A stretch of DNA of 64,000 nt from the IMG/VR virus record IMGVR_UViG_3300025122_000009, positions 1 through 64,000 of that record; one strand, 5' to 3'. Source of the DNA: a virus. Below the pieces are notes generated by a model. It was given only the letters and a program-made list of their open reading frames with translations. It did not search any database and was not told where the DNA came from. Both the position numbers and the translations under genes were made by a program. Shown in pieces: positions 47,275 to 57,697 of the stretch (the stretch's first letter is position 1; every line of letters begins with the position of its first letter).

Positions 47275-48687
47275 ATGAAAGATAGAAAACCTCTTAACAA
47301 TAAAATTTTCACCCCTCAAGGGAAAAATGGCCTTAATGCGATTGCGTCCTATAAATTCCGGAAGTTTTACAAGGATAAGTATCTTCAAATGCACAAGCCA
47401 TTTGAAAAAGCTTTAATAGATTTGTGGTACGATAAACCCTTGTTTGGAAAAGTTAGTGCGGAGGGAGACGCCATTTTTCTTTCGGAAACAAATTTGAAGC
47501 AGCTTAGGGTGGAGGGAGACAAAACTCTTTTTGCGGTTGATTTTGTAGCCGATGCGTTTAGCGATCTGCAAACACACTTTGTGGAAGCTGCTTTTCAGAG
47601 AAGAATAAAAACAGAAGACACCCCCTATGTTTCCCTAGATCCTCAGATAGCATGGGCTCCAATTGGCAATATGTACCACAATTATTTGACCTCTATTTAT
47701 AAGAGTTTCGTGTCCAATTATATAACGTCCCGAGGCGCCGAAAGAAAAATAGGAAATTTTGACGCCTTTGTACAATTGTTTATTATGTTCTTGCGTGATG
47801 TAGGAGTAGATTTTCCCTTTACTCGAACAGGTTTTATATTATCTAACCGATGTCCCAATACGGTGTCTGGGTTGATGATTGATCTAGCGGGAGCAGCCCA
47901 TGGCGCCGACTTAAAAAAGGTAAATAGTTTTATAAAAGATCGCAATTTTAGATTTTTTCGTGATTCCGCTAAAAATTTTGGTTTTATGGTAGATCGGAAC
48001 GCCCCTTGGCGTTTGGTAGCAGATCTATCATCGCCCAAGATGCAGGAGTACATAGCACGCTATGGCTTGTGGGATAGTAGCAGCGATATGATAGATAAAT
48101 ATTATTATAAGTCTCATCGCTTGGATATAGAGACGATGAAGGCGTATTTGGTTGAGTTTTACAACTCTTTTGCCCTCGAACTCCCCTATACGGATTGCCC
48201 CACTCAGATTGTATCTTGGGATACGCCCGGGACAACCGGGAACAAAGAAAGAATTTCTCGAAGGAGAATTTTTAGACAAAAGGTGACACGACAGCAAGTA
48301 GATGCGGCTTACGGGCCTACATTTTGGCTGAAAACATATTTATTAATACGCATGTATGAAAGTGGCGCCGCAGTTACTTGGAGCCGGGATCGTTTTAAAA
48401 ATAAAACAAAGCAAGTGTTTGAATATTACAAAGTGTTTGACTTTGAGACCGCAATAGGGTATATTAATGATTGGGCGAAGAAAGAGATGAAACTCAATCT
48501 TGCTAAAATGCTAGCTACGGATAAGTCTTTAGGAGTATCGGCATCCGACATACAAAAAGCACAGGATCAATATCCACAGACAGGACCAAGCGTAAATGAC
48601 ATTATTTCAGGTTATCAAGAGCCAAAAGAGAAGCCAAAAGAAACCAACATCGGCAAATCTACTGTATTTGACCCCCCACTTGACTAA
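47275..48687 (+). CDS. Baseplate structural protein (hypothetical, 470 aa)
   Basis: It follows the hub gene closely. Typical blocks are FRKFYKDKYLQMHKPFEKAL, NYITSRGAERKIGNFDAFVQ and TGFILSNRCPNTVSGLMIDL. The last resembles large conserved structural proteins of T4-like environmental phages. It is rich in aromatic and basic residues, has no membrane segment, and ends in a Pro/Lys-rich disordered tail. A baseplate wedge or hub-associated role is likely by position. The polymerase gene starts within its last codons. Confidence 0.65.
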   Translation: MKDRKPLNNKIFTPQGKNGLNAIASYKFRKFYKDKYLQMHKPFEKALIDLWYDKPLFGKVSAEGDAIFLSETNLKQLRVEGDKTLFAVDFVADAFSDLQTHFVEAAFQRRIKTEDTPYVSLDPQIAWAPIGNMYHNYLTSIYKSFVSNYITSRGAERKIGNFDAFVQLFIMFLRDVGVDFPFTRTGFILSNRCPNTVSGLMIDLAGAAHGADLKKVNSFIKDRNFRFFRDSAKNFGFMVDRNAPWRLVADLSSPKMQEYIARYGLWDSSSDMIDKYYYKSHRLDIETMKAYLVEFYNSFALELPYTDCPTQIVSWDTPGTTGNKERISRRRIFRQKVTRQQVDAAYGPTFWLKTYLLIRMYESGAAVTWSRDRFKNKTKQVFEYYKVFDFETAIGYINDWAKKEMKLNLAKMLATDKSLGVSASDIQKAQDQYPQTGPSVNDIISGYQEPKEKPKETNIGKSTVFDPPLD

Positions 48688-49804
48688 TACGGTACCTACT
48701 AGCGGTCGGACTTGGCGACATCACCCTTGTTTGGAGGAGGGCTCTTATGAATACGCTAACCTTTATTGCGAGGGCAAGACTTTAGATGAAGTGTGCCCTG
48801 CAGCGCTGCGTGACAAGTGGGAAATTCAAACTAAACGCTTGAAGGCTTTTTATCGCGCTTTTAGGGAGGCTAAGGTTGATCTGACAGAACATTGTTTTTA
48901 TGAGCAACTCCCTCCTGGTTTGTTAAAAGAATATTTGGAGTTGAAAAACCAGATTACTACTCACGTCTTTGATACTTATCCAAAACCTGCGAATTATGAT
49001 TTTTTGTTTGAGTTAACAAAAGTAGTAGAAGAAATAAAAGAAAGAAAAATAAATGTTGATCCTTCTATTTTAAAGAAGCGCTTTGCAGAATATAAAGTGC
49101 GCCAATTTTATAAAAAAATCTCCCACACCTATCCTTCCATTTCTTATAATATTTTTGGAACAAAAACAGGACGCCTTACTACCACCAAGGGTAGTTTTCC
49201 CATCTTAACGATAGATAAAAGTTATCGTTCTATAATCAGACCACAAAATGATTTTTTTGTCGAATTGGATTTCAACGCAGCGGAATTGAGGACGCTGCTT
49301 GCATTGGGAGAACACGAACAGCCGGTGGAGGATTTACACGACTGGAATGCGGAACATGTTTATCGGGGATTGTTATCCCGAGAGGAATCAAAGAAGAGAA
49401 TTTTTTCTTGGCTCTATAATCCTTCATCGAAAGATTATTTGTCGGCCCGGGCCTATGACAGAAAGAAAGTGCTTGAAAAATACTGGGATGGTAAAGTTGT
49501 AAGAACTCCTCTTGGGAGAGAGATCGATGCTGACCAGCACCACGCTCTCAACTATATTATTCAAAGTACCACGAGTGATTTATTTTTGGATAGAATGATA
49601 GCGGTACATAAATTTTTGGCAGACAGAAAATCCTTTATTTCTTTTTCAATACATGATAGCCTAGTAATTGATTTTGCTGAAAGCGAGCGCAACTTGATTT
49701 CCGACATTGCTCAAATTTTTTCGCAGACAATTTTTTCAGATTTTTTGACTAATGTTCGAGAAGGTCAAAATTATGGAGATATGGACGTAAGATGCAAACT
49801 GTAA
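48680..49804 (+). CDS. Short family A DNA polymerase (polymerase domain only)
   Basis: The polymerase core motifs are present: GRLTTTKGSFPIL (T-x-TGRL-type motif), motif A FFVELDFNAAELRTLLAL with catalytic Asp (nt ~49250-49310), a motif B-like helix with basic residues then F and Y (ESKKRIFSWLYN), and motif C ISFSIHDSLVIDF with HDS (~49652). The start is uncertain: I use TTG 48680, overlapping the previous stop by eight bases; ATG 48596 would add residues read out of frame in the previous gene. At ~374 residues it lacks the 3'-5' exonuclease domain of T7 or Pol I. Proofreading, if any, is encoded elsewhere. Confidence 0.85.
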   Translation: MTNTVPTSGRTWRHHPCLEEGSYEYANLYCEGKTLDEVCPAALRDKWEIQTKRLKAFYRAFREAKVDLTEHCFYEQLPPGLLKEYLELKNQITTHVFDTYPKPANYDFLFELTKVVEEIKERKINVDPSILKKRFAEYKVRQFYKKISHTYPSISYNIFGTKTGRLTTTKGSFPILTIDKSYRSIIRPQNDFFVELDFNAAELRTLLALGEHEQPVEDLHDWNAEHVYRGLLSREESKKRIFSWLYNPSSKDYLSARAYDRKKVLEKYWDGKVVRTPLGREIDADQHHALNYIIQSTTSDLFLDRMIAVHKFLADRKSFISFSIHDSLVIDFAESERNLISDIAQIFSQTIFSDFLTNVREGQNYGDMDVRCKL

Positions 49805-50658
49805 TTGGATTGGGCCAAGCCGGTTTTAATATCGCGACGGGTTTCGCGAAATACCCTCAGTATAATGTTTATACGCTGGATTCCGAGGCGCAGCACACTC
49901 CTAACCACTTTCTTCTTCCCAAGTGTGCGAACCATGAGGAGTACGAGTCGCGTACTCCAGATTTGTCAGGATACTTTAAAGAAATCCCAGAGGGGGAAGA
50001 GGTATTATTTATTATTGGGGGCGGAGGAACTGTAAGTGGTGCTTCTCTTGCGATTTTGCAGCAACTTCAAAAGTGCAAAATTCACCTCCTTTATATTAAG
50101 CCCGATATCTCTCTAGTGAGTGAACAAAGGATGAAGCAGGAACGTGTGGTCTTCAATATTCTCCAAGAATATGCGCGATCTAGTGTTTTTGAACGCATTA
50201 TTTTAATTGACAATATGGAACTAGATAGAATAGCGGGAGGGGCTCCGGTAATAGGATATTATAAGGAATTGAATAAAATTTTAATTTCTGCTCTTCACAT
50301 GATAAACGTCTTTACCCACTCTGAAGCTGTTATGAACACAATCGCCAAACCGCTTGAAATGACGCGCATTACAACGGTTGGCGTTCTAGATGTGGAAAAA
50401 AACGAAGAGAAGTTGTTTTTTCCCTTGACAGCGACTAGGGAAAAGAGTTATTATTATGCAGTGAACAACGAAACGTTAAAAACGGATCGCGAGCTATTTA
50501 AAACTATTACTGGACAACTGAAAGAAAAAATTATTGAGGATAAACTGAAAATCTCATACGGAATTTATTCAACTCAGTATAAAAAGAATTATGGTTTTTT
50601 AATCGCTCGAAGTTCTATGGTGCAAGGCATTATCTTAGAAAAAACCGAGGAGGAATAA
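49792..50658 (+). CDS. Tubulin/FtsZ-like GTPase
   Basis: This 288-residue protein starts QTVIGLGQAGFNIATGFAKY, like the first nucleotide-binding loop of FtsZ/tubulins, and has IIGGGGTVSGASLAILQ at residues 74-90. That resembles the tubulin signature loop (GGGTGSG) with one changed or inserted residue. Strand-helix alternation follows (HLLYIKPDISLVSEQRMKQE). Phage tubulins such as PhuZ (~315 residues) build filaments that position replicating DNA. The start overlaps the polymerase stop by 13 bases. Fold assignment is from motifs only; a Rossmann-type enzyme remains possible. Confidence 0.7.
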   Translation: MQTVIGLGQAGFNIATGFAKYPQYNVYTLDSEAQHTPNHFLLPKCANHEEYESRTPDLSGYFKEIPEGEEVLFIIGGGGTVSGASLAILQQLQKCKIHLLYIKPDISLVSEQRMKQERVVFNILQEYARSSVFERIILIDNMELDRIAGGAPVIGYYKELNKILISALHMINVFTHSEAVMNTIAKPLEMTRITTVGVLDVEKNEEKLFFPLTATREKSYYYAVNNETLKTDRELFKTITGQLKEKIIEDKLKISYGIYSTQYKKNYGFLIARSSMVQGIILEKTEEE

Positions 50659-50659
50659 T

Positions 50660-50923
50660 ATGTCTATTCGTATACGTGCGTATGTGGGAACATTTGAGAA
50701 AAAAAATGGCCAAGAGCGAGCTATGAAATTTGCTCGGCTGGAGGATTTACCAGAGGGGTTTGTGGAACAAAAAACTAAAGGGACTAACAAAACTCGCAAA
50801 CTCGTGGAGGGCAATGAATTGGTGTGGGATCTTGATGAGAAGAGTTTCCGCGTTTTTAATTGGAATACCGCGAAGGGGGATGTTTCACAAATCGAAAATT
50901 TTTCTCTTGACAGCCTAGACTAG
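50660..50923 (+). CDS. SH3-barrel/WYL_2-like small protein (87 aa)
   Basis: It begins one base after the previous stop behind CGAGGAGGAATAAT. The pattern is FEKKNGQERAMKFARLEDLP, a variable loop, then ELVWDLDEKSFRVFNW. It fits the small Sm/SH3-like phage family (KKDGxxRxM..T...lP ... vWDlxxxxxRxF) often found near replication genes in T4-like phages. Function is not known; nucleic-acid or protein binding is likely. Confidence 0.7.
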   Translation: MSIRIRAYVGTFEKKNGQERAMKFARLEDLPEGFVEQKTKGTNKTRKLVEGNELVWDLDEKSFRVFNWNTAKGDVSQIENFSLDSLD

Positions 50924-50935: not shown

Positions 50936-50992
50936 TAGTGTCAGATGTTCAGAAAATTTGCTGGGCATACTCTAACTATAAGGAAAAAAATA

Positions 50993-51733
50993 ATGGGTAT
51001 TGATCTTAAGAAAATTAAAGCAAGAAAAATGGCGTTGGACAACAGAGGAGGTAACAGTAACTTTTGGCGTCCTCAAGATGGCGACCAAACCATTCGTATT
51101 GTACCAACTCCAGATGGAGATCCCTTCAAGGATTTCTTTTTTCATTATAACGTAGGCAAAAATTCGGGTTTTGTGTGCCCCAAAAAGAATTTTGGTGATG
51201 ACTGTCCTGTATGCGGATTTGCTACAAAGCTTTATAATGAAGGGACTGACGACAGCATCAAGATGGCAAAGTCTCTCTTTGCTCGTCAACGCTTCTTCTC
51301 TCCCGTAGTTGTGCGTGGTGAAGAGGCGGATGGGGTGCGCATTTGGGGTTATGGGAAGATGGCGTATGAGTCACTTCTTAACTTGGTGTTGAATCCTGAG
51401 TATGGCGATATCACCGATGCTGAAGAAGGCACCGATCTTATTCTTACGTATGGGAAGCCTCCCGGTGCTACCTTCCCACAGACAAAGCTCCAACCTCGGA
51501 GACAATCATCTCCGCTTTGTCAGGACGGTCCAGAAAAGTGTGCTGAAATGATGGAAAGCATTCCAGAATTTGAGGGGCTTTTTGAGCGCAAAACTACAGA
51601 ACAAGTGGGCGCGATGTTAGACGAGTTTTTGGCTGACGAAGATAGTGCTGAAGACAGTTCTGTAGAAACTTCTAAGTATAACGCCAAGGAAACATCATCA
51701 GTTGATGATGCTTTCAGCGAATTGCTTAGTTAG
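50993..51733 (+). CDS. Single-stranded DNA-binding protein (gp32-like)
   Basis: I choose ATG 50993 (TATAAGGAAAAAAATA upstream), giving 246 residues. The N-terminus MGIDLKKIKARKMALDNRGG is the basic cooperativity segment. A zinc site follows: FFFHYNVGKNSGFVCPKKNF then DDCPVCGFATKL (His plus three Cys, as in T4 gp32 H64/C77/C87/C90). The C-terminus is acidic and Ser-rich (DEDSAEDSSVE...DDAFSELL), as in gp32, where it recruits partners. It coats single strands for replication and recombination with UvsX. Confidence 0.93.
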   Translation: MGIDLKKIKARKMALDNRGGNSNFWRPQDGDQTIRIVPTPDGDPFKDFFFHYNVGKNSGFVCPKKNFGDDCPVCGFATKLYNEGTDDSIKMAKSLFARQRFFSPVVVRGEEADGVRIWGYGKMAYESLLNLVLNPEYGDITDAEEGTDLILTYGKPPGATFPQTKLQPRRQSSPLCQDGPEKCAEMMESIPEFEGLFERKTTEQVGAMLDEFLADEDSAEDSSVETSKYNAKETSSVDDAFSELLS

Positions 51734-51801: not shown

Positions 51802-52911
51802 ATGGCAAAAGCAAAAAAAGCTGGCAAGCTTTCGATTGCGGACATGCGTAGTTTAATTAACCGAAAAGCCGGCATGCCGGTGGCTCACAATTTAAGCGAA
51901 GAAAATCCCACCCAAGTTGCCGATTGGATTCCAACAGGTTCGCGGTGGCTCGATTCTATTGTTTGTCGAGGTAAGCTGGCAGGAATTCCGGTGGGGAAAG
52001 TCTCCGAGATCGCTGGCCTCGAATCTACTGGGAAATCATACATGGCAGCTCAAGTCGCAGCAAATGCCCAGAAAATGGGTATCGATGTGATTTATTTTGA
52101 TTCCGAATCAGCGATTGATCCGAGCTTCTTGGAGCGCGCCGGTTGTGATTTGGATACTCTTCTTTATGTTCAGGCGCAATCTGTTGAATTTGTGCTAGAG
52201 ACTATTGAGGATCTGCTGGGCTCCAATGAAAACAGAATGCTGTTTATTTGGGATTCGTTGGCCTTAACCCCAGCTATTTCTGATATCGAGGGAGATTTTA
52301 ATCCTCTTTCATCAATGGCGGTCAAGGCTAGGATTTTGGCCAAGGGAATGTCTAAGTTGACCGTTCCTATTGCCAATACTCAATCAACTTTTTTGGTTCT
52401 CAACCAATTGAAAACCAACATCACCCGCAGCCCTTCTGAGGCAATGACCACACCTTATATGACTCCTGGTGGTAAGGCGATGATTTATTCTTATTCGCTG
52501 CGCGTGTGGCTGACAGGGCGTAAAGCCAAAGCGTCATATATCATCGATGATAAGGGATATCGCATCGGTTCCGAAGTGAAGGTTCGGTTGGAAAAGAGCC
52601 GATTTGGTACACAGGGAAGACAATGTAATTTTAAAATTTTGTGGGGTGAGGAAATTGGTGTTCAAGACGAGGAGAGTTGGTTTGAGGCCGTTAAAGGTTC
52701 TAAGCATTTGGCCTCATCGGGAGCGTGGTATACTCTTGCACATGCGGACGGCACCGAAGAAAAATTTCAACCTTCTAAGTGGCCTGAAAAAATTCAAGAT
52801 GAGAAGTTTAGGACCAGAATTTTAGAAATCATGGATGAAGAAGTGATTTTAAAATTTGACAAGCGGGAGGTAGACGCCGACCAGTTCTACAATTCTGAAG
52901 AAGCGGTCTAG
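51802..52911 (+). CDS. uvsX: RecA/UvsX-type strand-exchange recombinase
   Basis: This 369-residue protein has Walker A VSEIAGLESTGKSYMAAQVA (nt ~52000-52060), Walker B MLFIWDSLALTPA, and the RecA L2-like region MTPGGKAMIYSYSLRVWLTG. Length is near T4 UvsX (391). It pairs homologous DNA for recombination-dependent replication. It follows the SSB gene with a short leader holding a weak hairpin (ATGCC/GGCAT near 51737-51756). The mediator UvsY is not recognised here. Confidence 0.93.
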   Translation: MAKAKKAGKLSIADMRSLINRKAGMPVAHNLSEENPTQVADWIPTGSRWLDSIVCRGKLAGIPVGKVSEIAGLESTGKSYMAAQVAANAQKMGIDVIYFDSESAIDPSFLERAGCDLDTLLYVQAQSVEFVLETIEDLLGSNENRMLFIWDSLALTPAISDIEGDFNPLSSMAVKARILAKGMSKLTVPIANTQSTFLVLNQLKTNITRSPSEAMTTPYMTPGGKAMIYSYSLRVWLTGRKAKASYIIDDKGYRIGSEVKVRLEKSRFGTQGRQCNFKILWGEEIGVQDEESWFEAVKGSKHLASSGAWYTLAHADGTEEKFQPSKWPEKIQDEKFRTRILEIMDEEVILKFDKREVDADQFYNSEEAV

Positions 52912-52930: not shown

Positions 52931-53680
52931 ATGAGTCCACAATTTAGAAAGTATTATGCTATAACGGTCATGATTATTCTGGCACTATTGATCGTAGAAG
53001 CATTATGTTGCCAATGTGCGAACGCGAAAGAAAAGCTCACTTACGACATTAATGTTTTAAGTGCGAATGTGGCAAAGGCTGTTATGGTTTATAAGCCGGA
53101 TAAGCATGAGAACAAAGAAGTCCTAAAACTGTTTGGTACTTTGGAGACTAAAGAAAACTGGGCTAAGTTTTATTCTGTCCAACACAAGGTGGCATCTATC
53201 GTGCTGGAGGATGATTTTCCTATTTTATCCGAGATGCATCTTAACAAAAACAACAACAAAAAGCGCTATACCTTACATTTTGGACCTGAAGGGATTGCCG
53301 GCTCAAAGAAGGTAAAGGGTAAAAAAGAAAGAGCTATTATCCAACCCACCACTGTACCTACTCACGACTTATTAAGCTGGATAAATTATCTTAGGAATCA
53401 TGATTTGGAAGTTGGTAAACCTTTTAGGTTTAAAATATTTAGTGGCAATCATTTTTATATGGTGGAATGCTTCCCCGGCAAAGTAGAAGATGTATGGACT
53501 AAAATGGGAATCATCCCAGCACATAAAATAGATGCGTCTATCCAGGGCCTTGGAAGGAAGAAGAAGTTTAAGAAAGAGGTAAAGGCGTGGATTAGCGCAG
53601 ATAGAAAAAAATTACCATTAAAAATGATTTTTGGCTTGACTTTTGGTGAGATTAGGGTTATTCTATCTAACGTAGACTGA
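52931..53680 (+). CDS. Exported DUF3108-like protein
   Basis: An N-terminal signal segment (YYAITVMIILALLIVEALCC, then QCANA) precedes a ~215-residue domain. It follows the DUF3108 pattern: LTYDINVLSANVAKAVMVYK, a central DLLSWINYLRNHDLEVGK (as in 'DpxSaxYyLRxxxLexG'), and KEVKAWISADRKKLPLKMIF then GLTFGEIRVIL. DUF3108 proteins are periplasmic proteins of Gram-negative bacteria with unknown function. It lies between replication genes but has no replication role I can see. The likely source is bacterial. The Cys pair in the signal could allow lipidation. Confidence 0.72.
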   Translation: MSPQFRKYYAITVMIILALLIVEALCCQCANAKEKLTYDINVLSANVAKAVMVYKPDKHENKEVLKLFGTLETKENWAKFYSVQHKVASIVLEDDFPILSEMHLNKNNNKKRYTLHFGPEGIAGSKKVKGKKERAIIQPTTVPTHDLLSWINYLRNHDLEVGKPFRFKIFSGNHFYMVECFPGKVEDVWTKMGIIPAHKIDASIQGLGRKKKFKKEVKAWISADRKKLPLKMIFGLTFGEIRVILSNVD

Positions 53681-53705: not shown

Positions 53706-55304
53706 ATGAAAAAAGCAATTATTACAATTTTGGGTCTGGCGATCCTCTTGGCTTTGGTAGCCACGATGCTCGATATCGCTAGCGCCGATGCATGCGAGCC
53801 TCAAAGCACTCAAGTGGCTCATTATGACCATGATGACTATGGGTATGATAATCATCACTATGACGATGATTACGGGGATAACAGCTATTACGATGATGGC
53901 TATAGTTCTGGTGATTATGCGTACACCAATACCAACTATGCTCGAAACCAGTATGTGCCGGTAATCGTTTACGATCATGTTTATGACTATCGACTTGGGC
54001 GATGGACGTGGGTTAACAGCCACACCAACATGATGAGTTGCCACCGCGCCGGAAAGATCGTATTGTCGGCTTATAACCGGGGCTTAAACGTCCACTATGA
54101 AGGGTATCGCGGATGCCCCACCCGTGTTACTTATAACACGTATCATCGGGCCACTCAGACATACTTGACCTATCCCGCATTTCATGTTTATTGGGGAACC
54201 ACCTTCAATTGGATGCATACTGCTTTTCACCACCATGGATCGCTGTATGCCCATCACTACAACCCGCACCAGATCTACCAGCAACCTTATACGATGAGAC
54301 ACCACCATCACTCACAGTATGCGCACTACACTAACAATCAGCACCATACGTGGAAAACGAAACAGTGGCACACAGGACACTGGAAGAAGAATAGTTATAA
54401 CAAGAAAGTGGTGGTTAACAAGATTGTCAATAACAATAACGTGACTGTTAACGTGAGCAAGCATTACCGATCTAGTGATTGGAAGAAAAATAAGAAGTCT
54501 TCTAAGAAAAACTGGAAGAAGAAGGGTGGCAAGAAGGGCCAACATTCTGATTTGAGAAAGAACGGTAAAATGGGATCTCAACATTATCGACAACAGGAGA
54601 ATCGCAAAAAGCGTGAGAACCAGTCGGCTTCTTCCCCTCGCGTCAATAATAATAAGAAGCGCTCTAACAACAAGGGTGTTAATAAGAACAAGAAGCGCCA
54701 GAACAATAATGGACAGGCCCATCGCGGCAACCATAGCGCCCACAACAACAAGCGCCATCACCGTCAAGGAAAAAACGTGCCGAAGCGAAGTGATTTCCGA
54801 AATGGTGCGAACAAGCGTAAAAGCATGCCTAAGCGTGGTAATGTTCAAAGGCGTGGGAACCAACGACCACAAAAGGCAAACGCCCAGCGTCCCTTTCAGC
54901 GGTCCCCGAAGCGTTCTGCCCGAGCCCCCCAGCGCAACCATCAAAAGCGGCAGGTTCAGCAGCAGCGCCCTCGTCAGAACAAGCGCGTGACACGTCCTTC
55001 TCAAAGGCAGACACAGCGCCCCCGCGTTTCTCAAAGGCAGACACAGCGCCCCCGCGTTTCTCAAAGGCAGACACAGCGCCCCCGCGTGACCCAACGGCGC
55101 ACCGCTCCGCAAAACCGGCAGGTTCAGCAGCAGCGCCGTACCCCTCGTCGCTCCAACGTGCATCAGGGTCGCACCGCTCCTCAAAAGCGACAAGTTGCCC
55201 CGTCTAAGAGAGGAAACTCTAAGCGACACGCCAGTGCGAGTCGTCCCCACAACTCCCGACGTAGTGCGCCCGCACGCCCTCAGAATCGTCGGTCTACTCG
55301 TTAA
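53706..55304 (+). CDS. Exported His/Tyr-rich and Arg/Gln-rich low-complexity protein
   Basis: A clear signal peptide (MKKAIITILGLAILLALVAT onward to SADA) precedes three zones. Residues ~38-80 are Asp/Tyr/His-rich (YDHDDYGYDNHHYDDDYGD). Residues ~80-250 are Tyr/His/Trp-rich, with a possible folded part (VPVIVYDHVYDYRLGRWTWV) and four-His runs. Residues ~255-532 are Asn/Lys then Arg/Gln/Pro-rich and extremely basic, with tandem SQRQTQRPRV units. Such a protein could bind metals, nucleic acid or envelope polymers outside the cytoplasm. I do not know its function. It follows the DUF3108-like gene by 25 bases. Confidence 0.75.
   Translation: MKKAIITILGLAILLALVATMLDIASADACEPQSTQVAHYDHDDYGYDNHHYDDDYGDNSYYDDGYSSGDYAYTNTNYARNQYVPVIVYDHVYDYRLGRWTWVNSHTNMMSCHRAGKIVLSAYNRGLNVHYEGYRGCPTRVTYNTYHRATQTYLTYPAFHVYWGTTFNWMHTAFHHHGSLYAHHYNPHQIYQQPYTMRHHHHSQYAHYTNNQHHTWKTKQWHTGHWKKNSYNKKVVVNKIVNNNNVTVNVSKHYRSSDWKKNKKSSKKNWKKKGGKKGQHSDLRKNGKMGSQHYRQQENRKKRENQSASSPRVNNNKKRSNNKGVNKNKKRQNNNGQAHRGNHSAHNNKRHHRQGKNVPKRSDFRNGANKRKSMPKRGNVQRRGNQRPQKANAQRPFQRSPKRSARAPQRNHQKRQVQQQRPRQNKRVTRPSQRQTQRPRVSQRQTQRPRVSQRQTQRPRVTQRRTAPQNRQVQQQRRTPRRSNVHQGRTAPQKRQVAPSKRGNSKRHASASRPHNSRRSAPARPQNRRSTR
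54999..55088 (+). repeat. 30-base tandem repeat, three copies
   Basis: Unit TCTCAAAGGCAGACACAGCG plus CCCCCGCGTT at 54999-55028, 55029-55058 and 55059-55088 (last base differs). It encodes SQRQTQRPRV three times in the basic tail of the exported protein. Exact copies imply recent expansion. Confidence 0.95.
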
Positions 55305-55376: not shown

Positions 55377-56336
55377 ATGAAAAGAGTAGTATTGATTGAT
55401 GCCCTAAACATGCTTTACAGGGCGTATATTGTGGACCCAAGCCTTTCTACCAACGGTTATCCAATCGGAGGAATTAAAGGCTTTCTTAAGATTTTACAGA
55501 AAATGGTGAGGGAAATGAAGCCAGACCGCGTTATTATCGCGTGGGATGGCATCGGTGGCTCAAAACGACGGAAATTGGTTCAAAAGGATTATAAAGCGGG
55601 AAGGAAGCCGATCCGGCTGAATCGGGACATTAGGAATATGTCCGAGAATGAAGAAATAGAGAATAAAATTTGGCAACAAACTCGTCTGACACAATATTTA
55701 AATGAGTTGCCTGTTATCCAAACCATGGTACCTCACATCGAGGCTGATGACATCATCGCGTATGCGGTTCAGATGAATTGTTTTAAGGGTTGGCAAAAGA
55801 TTATTATCTCTAGCGATAAGGACTTTATTCAGCTTTGTGATGACGAAACAGTGTTGTATAGGCCGATACAGAAGGTCTTTCTCAACAGCAAAAGGGTGGT
55901 GGAAGAGTACGGCATCCATCCGGCTAATTTCGCCCTCGCACGCGCCATTTCTGGTGATAAGAGTGATAATCTCAAGGGTGTTGGAGGCGTTGGGATGAAG
56001 ACAGTAGCCAAGAGATTCCCTTTTTTAAGCGAAGAAAAGACCCATTATATAAGCAGTCTTATCGACCATTGTGGGGAGATGAAAGAAGAAAAGGCAAAGG
56101 TTTATCAGACTATTCAGGAGAACGTGGACGTTATCGAACAGAATTATAAACTAATGCAGCTGTATTCCCCCAATATCCCAATTAACGGGAAACAAACTGT
56201 GCGGCATGCTATTGAAGATTTTGTGCCTGAATTTAATAAGACAGGCACGGTTAAGATGATGACTGAGGATGGCTTTGGAGCTTTTGACTGGTCATCCCTG
56301 TTCCAAAACATGAAACGTATCACGACGGAGAAATAA
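55377..56336 (+). CDS. 5'-3' exonuclease / flap endonuclease (T4 RNase H-like)
   Basis: This 319-residue protein is of the FEN/PIN type: VVLIDALNMLYRAYI (first Asp), RVIIAWDG, PHIEADDIIAYAVQ (Glu-Ala-Asp-Asp), IIISSDKDFIQLCDD (SSDxDF), and AISGDKSDNLKGVGGVGMKT (helix-hairpin-helix with GDxSDNxxG). T4 RNase H (305 residues) removes RNA primers and flaps on the lagging strand. Since the polymerase here lacks any exonuclease domain, this enzyme would supply primer removal. It is followed by the helicase gene with a one-base overlap. Confidence 0.92.
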   Translation: MKRVVLIDALNMLYRAYIVDPSLSTNGYPIGGIKGFLKILQKMVREMKPDRVIIAWDGIGGSKRRKLVQKDYKAGRKPIRLNRDIRNMSENEEIENKIWQQTRLTQYLNELPVIQTMVPHIEADDIIAYAVQMNCFKGWQKIIISSDKDFIQLCDDETVLYRPIQKVFLNSKRVVEEYGIHPANFALARAISGDKSDNLKGVGGVGMKTVAKRFPFLSEEKTHYISSLIDHCGEMKEEKAKVYQTIQENVDVIEQNYKLMQLYSPNIPINGKQTVRHAIEDFVPEFNKTGTVKMMTEDGFGAFDWSSLFQNMKRITTEK

Positions 56337-57697
56337 TGGAAAAAGTTGATTTTTCTAAATATGGGAAAGCTTTCCAAGAGGACCTGGCACAATTAATCCT
56401 GGAGGATAGATCCTTTTCAGATCAAATGCAAGAGGTTTTGAAGCTCGAATTCTTTGAATTTAGATATCTTCAAGTATTTATTGAAAAGATATTTGATTAT
56501 CGCAACAAGTATGGCGTTCATCCCACCAGCAAGATAATGATTACTCTCCTCCGCGCTTCTTTAGATGAGGAGAATGACGCGGTTAAGAAACAGGTTAGGG
56601 ATTATTTTGCGCGTATCCATAAAGCAGGATTCGGCGTCGATGGCGATGAATATATTAAGGAGACTTCGCTTGATTTTTGTCGAAAACAAAAGCTCAAGGA
56701 GGCAATGCTTGAATCGGTTAAGCTTTTAAAAAGTTCGTCTTTTGACGAGATTAGCGAAGTTATTAATCAGGCTCTAAAGCTGGGGAGTGATAATAAGTTT
56801 GGATACGATTATAAAGTAGACTTTGAAAAGCGATTTGAAATTAAAGCTCGCAATGCCGTCAGTACTGGGTGGAAAGAAGTTGATGACTTATGTAAGGGGG
56901 GCTTGGGAGAGGGAGAACTGGGAGTGGTTATTGCTCCTACCGGAGCGGGAAAATCAATGGCTTTGGTACACTTGGGGGCCGAGGCTGTAAAAGAAGGTAA
57001 AACTGTCATACACTATACTTTGGAATTGGGATCTACTATAATTGCATCGAGGTATGATAGTTGTATTACAGGCGTTCACTTGAAAGACCTCTTTTCTTTT
57101 AAAGAACAAATATTTGAAACTGTCCAAGAGTTGGAAGGAAATTTAATTATTAAGGAATACCCAACAAAATCAGCTTCGCCCACCACAATCAAGACTCATT
57201 TGGAGAAGCTTCGCCACCGGGGCATACCCATTGATATGATTATTGTTGATTATGGAGATTTATTGCGACCAAATGTGATAAGAAAAGAGAAAAGGCACGA
57301 ACTGGAAACTATTTACGAAGATTTGAGAGCCCTCGCTCAAGAATTTAAGTGTCCTTGTTATACGGCTAGTCAAACTAACAGGAGCGGCTTGAACGCGGAA
57401 GTAATTACAATGGAATCTATTTCAGAAGCTTTTAATAAATGCTTTGTAGCAGATTTTATCTTCTCCTTATCGCGCACCATCCAAGATAAAAACACCAACA
57501 GTGGGCGCCTTTTTATAGCTAAAAATAGAAATGGCCCGGACGGATTAATTTATCCTATATTTATGGACACGAGCAATGTGAAGATAAAGGTGCTTCCTTC
57601 GACTGGAGAAACGATGGATAGCGTTGTATCTAAAACGTCCAAAGAGCAGGGAGAACTTCTCAAAGAAAAATATAAGCAATTTAAAAAAGGTAAATAA
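56336..57697 (+). CDS. Replicative DNA helicase (gp41/DnaB-like)
   Basis: This 453-residue protein has a short N-terminal domain, then the RecA-type motor: Walker A VVIAPTGAGKSMALVHLG (residues ~198-215), HYTLELGSTIIASRYDSC, Walker B IPIDMIIVDYGDLLRP, and CPCYTASQTNRSG (sensor Gln). Length is close to T4 gp41 (475). The hexamer unwinds DNA at the fork and recruits primase. The start ATG overlaps the exonuclease stop by one base, so they are coupled. Confidence 0.93.
   Translation: MEKVDFSKYGKAFQEDLAQLILEDRSFSDQMQEVLKLEFFEFRYLQVFIEKIFDYRNKYGVHPTSKIMITLLRASLDEENDAVKKQVRDYFARIHKAGFGVDGDEYIKETSLDFCRKQKLKEAMLESVKLLKSSSFDEISEVINQALKLGSDNKFGYDYKVDFEKRFEIKARNAVSTGWKEVDDLCKGGLGEGELGVVIAPTGAGKSMALVHLGAEAVKEGKTVIHYTLELGSTIIASRYDSCITGVHLKDLFSFKEQIFETVQELEGNLIIKEYPTKSASPTTIKTHLEKLRHRGIPIDMIIVDYGDLLRPNVIRKEKRHELETIYEDLRALAQEFKCPCYTASQTNRSGLNAEVITMESISEAFNKCFVADFIFSLSRTIQDKNTNSGRLFIAKNRNGPDGLIYPIFMDTSNVKIKVLPSTGETMDSVVSKTSKEQGELLKEKYKQFKKGK

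Follow-up and report, generated by a model that had tools for sequence, protein, structure and literature searches.

A predicted tubulin/FtsZ-fold protein in the replication cassette of uncultured T4-like phages

What is a protein that resembles tubulin and FtsZ doing among the replication genes of a T4-like phage? Most of what is known of phage tubulins comes from nucleus-forming jumbo phages and from prophage and plasmid partition. The locus discussed here lies in a stretch of 64,000 nucleotides (the window), part of an 87.8-kb IMG/VR viral record, where a gene of 288 codons that we call TUB occupies 49792..50658 on the + strand, from an ATG at 49792 to a TAA at 50656-50658. The original prediction, made from the letters alone, took its 288-aa product for a phage tubulin/FtsZ-like GTPase that may organise replication.

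The gene, its relatives and its neighbours

The TUB ORF is real, and its family is under strong purifying selection. A profile search finds relatives encoded in at least 590 IMG/VR stretches (a first search had given 22 loci), the records in this collection being fragments; identity between the window protein and its relatives is mostly 40-50%, and dN/dS is about 0.05-0.09 in the five pairs with measurable dS. Together with the conserved gene order described below, these values place the ORF far beyond chance. Apparent stop codons within TUB in three records were considered as a sign of recoding, an idea that was dropped when they proved to fall outside the aligned gene.

On the + strand, TUB begins inside the gene for a short family-A DNA polymerase (402 aa, 48596..49804, stop codon 49802-49804), with which it shares the expected overlap, 13 nt long; this polymerase is the upstream gene of TUB family-wide. 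Downstream on the same strand come an 87-aa protein that is WYL_2-like (PF10902, below cut-off; 50660..50923) and then, as had been foreseen, a gp32-type single-strand DNA-binding protein (SSB; 50945..51733; PF08804, E 2e-13) and a UvsX/RecA-type recombinase (51802..52911; PF00154, E 4e-35), while the rest of the replication cassette includes a 5'-3' exonuclease (55377..56336, +), a DnaB-like replicative helicase (56336..57697, +) and a ribonucleotide reductase.

This arrangement is kept with great fidelity. Upstream, 86 loci have flanks that leave room; polA is the next conserved gene in 81 of them, and the remaining five show none. The next one downstream, in all 89 loci with enough flank, is either gp32 (70) or the 87-aa gene (19, by tblastn). 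Taking polA as the anchor in a census of the 80 closest relatives, we find TUB in 79 of 80 contigs, the exception ending 463 bp after polA. The link to replication therefore stands in the form of this conserved place, with the short polymerase on one side and gp32/UvsX on the other. A single TUB gene is present in each of ten records 102-191 kb long, and TUB and polA distances are correlated (r=0.80, a value reached in 0 of 2000 permutations), although any core gene that is inherited vertically should co-diverge in this way, which is no proof of contact between the two proteins.

The genome is T4-type, as the prediction implied: the record holds PHROGs matches to terminase, protease and gp23 capsid genes alongside the DnaB helicase and ribonucleotide reductase. 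Best matches of the capsid protein (these are not a tree) are to LR756508, RM378, immuto and Mel-JY01, that is, to a huge uncultured phage, Rhodothermus phage RM378, Flavobacterium phage immuto and Microcystis phage Mel-JY01. On the strength of these capsid matches and the T4-like virion genes, the phage classes as Far-T4-like, a group whose link to marine Bacteroidetes/Flavobacteriales in the literature is purely one of prediction (PMC7198788, PMC13037479). Tubulin or FtsZ goes unmentioned in the Far-T4 phage papers that we covered, a partial literature in which an earlier mention is possible. A profile search of the three nearest-capsid isolates (RM378, immuto and Mel-JY01) found no TUB; immuto and Mel-JY01 have the same cassette order of polA, SSB, UvsX, exonuclease and helicase, with other small genes in the place of TUB, and TUB therefore looks like a fixed, lineage-specific addition. 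One of the Mel-JY01 genes in that place encodes 428 aa that include an S-adenosylmethionine lyase domain (L129:12406-13692; PF23780, E 4e-10).

Two further leads came to nothing. The sliding clamp PF02916 has no match in nine TUB records and none in the TUB-less isolates either, making its absence uninformative. The sole match to TUB in a cellular genome is in the WOR-3 MAG chromosome CP070664.1 (L104:7500-12800), where an upstream gene of unknown function, polA, TUB, gp32 and uvsX sit between runs of N; this N-flanked phage piece is probably a scaffolding artefact, and we do not take it for a prophage or a link to a host.

The predicted fold

Structure prediction shows TUB to be a minimal two-domain tubulin/FtsZ-fold protein. 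An AlphaFold2 model of the window protein, built from an 88-sequence alignment, has a pLDDT of 94.7 and a pTM of 0.92, and all 50 of its listed PDB matches are FtsZ, TubZ or CetZ proteins, matched over both domains (E 2e-13 to 2e-11, TM mostly 0.64-0.74, identity 12-18%). A second member, L082, independent of the first and shorter in its T4 loop, gave a model with a pLDDT of 93.3 and the same fold result; over both models, with 50 PDB matches listed for each, E runs from about 1e-13 to 1e-10 and TM is mostly 0.6-0.74. The best PDB match is S. aureus FtsZ (E 2.3e-13, TM 0.70), the TubZ structures 2xka and 4ei7 match at E 4e-13 to 5e-13, and the viral structure matches include FtsZ-like proteins of uncultured phages and the PhuZ of Noxifer. 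Models and full-length FtsZ/TubZ/CetZ matches alike have an N-terminal nucleotide-binding domain, the core helix H7 and a C-terminal domain, in that order.

The fold search proposed with the original prediction thus comes out in its favour, and it also disposes of the fold named there as the one that would overturn it, a NAD(P)-binding Rossmann enzyme. Such an enzyme would carry its GxGxxG motif by chance, and a few members do have weak matches to Pfam Pyr_redox_2/TrkA_N; yet the listed matches of two models all belong to the tubulin superfamily over both domains, which at the level of predicted structure rules the Rossmann reading out and leaves it a vanishingly small chance.

Sequence comparison is far less telling. 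PHROGs, Pfam and NCBIfam give the window protein no convincing family, the best match being Pfam Tubulin (PF00091) at E 0.0064, or 17.2 bits against a curated cut-off of 33. It would be unfair to exclude TUB on this account, because six of seven real PhuZ proteins that we tried as controls also fall below the PF00091 cut-off, the Noxifer PhuZ having no match at all. Profile comparison by hhalign is hardly more generous, giving E 9e-4 and a probability of 23% against PhuZ and, against FtsZ, aligning the T1 loop only. Homology from sequence is therefore weak, and the claim to it rests mainly on structure. On the models for the fold, and on gene order, co-occurrence and co-divergence for the core status in the cassette, we are nearly certain of both, and we read TUB as a new family of the tubulin superfamily.

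How does this family compare with its better-known cousins? Like PhuZ, it is a phage-encoded tubulin fold of similar size; the expected fit to the length of phage tubulins, however, is a rough one, since the 288 aa include no counterpart of H8/H9 or of the long C-terminal tail found in PhuZ and TubZ (crystallised TubZ chains have some 380-410 residues). TUB further differs from PhuZ in lacking the TubZ_C_2 domain (PF22334) and a T7 acid, and from FtsZ in lacking a Pfam FtsZ_C match and in sharing only 12-17% identity with it. The settings differ as well: TubZ belongs to type III partition operons, whereas TUB lies in a replication cassette with no tubR/tubC-type neighbour seen, and unlike PhuZ it is found in T4-like genomes below jumbo size that have no PF00091 match, in a polymerase/SSB context and with strict retention in its lineage.

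The nucleotide pocket

If the fold is that of tubulin, is the enzyme still there? A joint MAFFT alignment of TUB, FtsZ and PhuZ, made without structures, pairs T1, T4, N141 and N161 of TUB with T1, T4, N165 and N186 of FtsZ, and the conservation statistics that follow come from 146 distinct TUB members. Both loops singled out by the original prediction are present. The T1 loop GLGQAGFNIA (residues 6-15, 49807..49836, +) aligns with that of FtsZ and resembles those of PhuZ (GGAGFRIG in phiKZ and GGTGFNIG in D6, against GQAGFNIA), with G6 in 99%, G8 in 100% and G11 in 97% of members; at its position 12, 91% of relatives have Cys where the window protein has Phe. The T4 loop GGGGTVSG (residues 76-83, 50017..50040, +, placed by the joint alignment) is another matter. 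The window sequence GGGTVSG does differ from GGGTGSG at a single position, but calling this a one-residue change understates the divergence, because the window protein has one of the least altered versions: most relatives read G[SA]Gx[IV]S[GA], the middle glycine has become Ile or Val in 91%, and none of the 146 has the canonical GGGTG[ST]G (GGGTGTG in FtsZ).

Elsewhere in the pocket, a similar mixture of loss and retention is seen. The T2 position, assigned by the joint alignment, keeps D30 (94% D; 49879..49881, +), and in the region of the FtsZ T3 loop GAG no member has a G[ASG]G motif, the conserved residues being E49-x-Y51-E52 (92-95%; 49936..49947, +). The asparagines are largely kept, N141 in 92% (50212..50214, +), aligned with the guanine-contacting N165 of E. 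coli FtsZ, and N161 in 93% (50272..50274, +), at the start of H7 and aligned with N186.

It is through the T7-H8 segment that one subunit of a tubulin-type GTPase sets off GTP hydrolysis in its neighbour, the T7 motif NxDxxD/E contributing the catalytic acid. In place of that segment (GLMNVDFADV in FtsZ), the model and alignment put a short loop at residues 176-192 (50317..50367, +) without a conserved catalytic acid, the helix of residues 156-175 running through this loop into the strand 193-200 with no H8. The T7 check suggested at the outset therefore finds the segment missing or unconserved; N-x-D/E occurs anywhere in residues 170-193 of only 48 of the 146.

At the level of sequence and model, then, most members retain a predicted guanine-binding pocket but neither the canonical phosphate loops nor T7-H8. 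We infer that most would bind GTP or GDP and that TUB is probably a poor GTPase or none, with little or no T7-dependent hydrolysis; that its GTPase is non-canonical or absent we hold with good, if incomplete, confidence. On this point, and on a filament of the PhuZ kind, the original prediction is not supported, every member having non-canonical T3 and T4 loops, and a canonical GTPase was rejected.

Some members appear to have given up the pocket altogether. N141 is missing in 11 of 146 (L132, L136, L143, L147, L161, L167, L168, L192, L193, L200 and L202), ten of which also lack N161, while N161 alone is never missing; all 11 have lost Gly79 of T4, mostly to Asp or Glu. In a tree built without these columns, N141 changes five times, at least three of them on well-supported branches, which gives at least three independent losses, although the independent pairs are too few for a significant sign test of correlated loss. 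Such a pattern is consistent with all these residues serving a single guanine pocket, which is now and then given up with the remainder of the protein retained. The pocket-less members keep a QEYARS-type motif, H169 and Y263. The motif QEYARS itself (residues 125-130, 50164..50181, +) is family-specific, lies at the end of helix H5 and is close to fixed (Q and R 100%, S 99%, Y 96%); Q125, Y127, R129, S130, H169 and Y263 are all invariant or nearly so, and, to judge by FtsZ topology, QEYARS may sit on the side of the protein away from the nucleotide.

A part in the replisome?

We favour the idea that TUB is a core replication component with a non-canonical GTPase and a structural or switch-like role, an account that as a whole we hold to be somewhat better than an even bet. 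TUB would act, with nucleotide bound, as a subunit alongside the phage polymerase, SSB and recombinase, its fold serving as a scaffold or oligomer that GTP or GDP stabilises or regulates, and QEYARS, H169 and Y263 would form the working surface, retained even in lineages without the base-binding residues. For a replisome-associated scaffold in particular, we see the chances as evenly balanced. We also infer that TUB is not a cytomotive GTPase filament, bearing in mind that its non-canonical loops are compatible with polymerisation.

The rivals share much of this evidence. A PhuZ/TubZ-like filament that polymerises with GTP and positions replicating DNA or virions, with its catalysis rebuilt around, for example, the invariant R129 reaching across the interface, would agree with the shared TubZ/FtsZ fold, with the guanine Asn pair in 92-93% of members, with the invariant QEYARS motif that closes H5 and with the filaments that known phage tubulins form (PMC3678025, PMC10299810). 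The lack of T7-H8 and of canonical T3/T4 loops weighs against it, as does the gene's survival in the lineages that lost the pocket; moreover, the C-terminal domain PF22334, present in seven of seven real PhuZ tested, is absent here by Pfam (E<=1), and, whereas phages can do without PhuZ and a third of Chimalliviridae lack it (PMC10299810), TUB is near-universal in its lineage. We rate such a filament as unlikely.

More doubtful still is a pseudo-FtsZ poison that binds the ends of host FtsZ filaments and, as a T7-less cap, stops host division. The nearest solved structures are indeed bacterial FtsZ, and a subunit stripped of its T7 side would be one-sided and would act as a cap; against this, TUB shares 12-18% identity with FtsZ and has no apparent interface mimicry, and it always sits in the core cassette and co-diverges with polA, whereas typical host-takeover genes are variable. 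Nor do we see much prospect for an enzyme or sensor of another nucleotide, such as one that senses the dGTP/GTP pool and acts on the polymerase or on ribonucleotide reductase. The retained Asn pair, rebuilt phosphate loops and conserved acidic E49/E52 would suit it, as would the reductase in the cassette, but TUB shows none of the catalytic signatures that mark known enzymes, and at least three lineages keep the gene after losing the pocket.

If the favoured account is true, it suggests that a tubulin was re-used, from cytoskeleton to viral DNA-replication factor. There is precedent for repurposing in the divergent FtsZ families FtsZl-1 and FtsZl-2, which occur in cellular, membrane-remodelling contexts (PMC2875224); TUB differs in being viral, in lying in a replication operon and in having no Tubulin_2 (PF13809) match. 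A jumbo-phage survey counted two FtsZ/tubulin representatives (PMC7824862), and TUB would add a further one outside jumbo phages: a separate family with hundreds of members in an abundant uncultured marine T4-like group, missing from annotation libraries and from the isolate collection that we tested (tblastn with two TUB members found zero matches in 50,697 phage records, where a PhuZ query found 179). It is kept in its replication operon more strictly than PhuZ is in PhuZ's own group. The family widens the roles of the tubulin fold, and its natural variants with and without a guanine pocket make testable the idea of a tubulin that serves DNA replication without GTP-driven dynamics. That it is a third class of phage tubulin, an obligate and largely non-hydrolysing part of the replisome whose FtsZ/tubulin-derived pocket now has a structural role and has disappeared from several lineages with the replication function retained, is a proposal that we make tentatively, the balance being against it.

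The surrounding genes offer curiosities of their own. Upstream of polA, in the window and in most relatives, is a 470-aa protein (47275-48687) for which Pfam and PHROG give nothing convincing. A DUF3108-domain protein (E 9e-24, 52931-53680) lies between uvsX and the exonuclease gene, and a 532-aa ORF (53706-55304), rich in His/Asn/Gln/Arg/Lys, with RVSQRQTQRP repeats and no family match, also adjoins the replication genes. Pfam finds no 3'-5' exonuclease PF01612 in ten TUB-bearing records. Finally, the family-A polymerase (48596-49804) is only about 400 aa long across the whole TUB lineage, and the 5'-3' exonuclease (55377-56336) is a gene separate from it.
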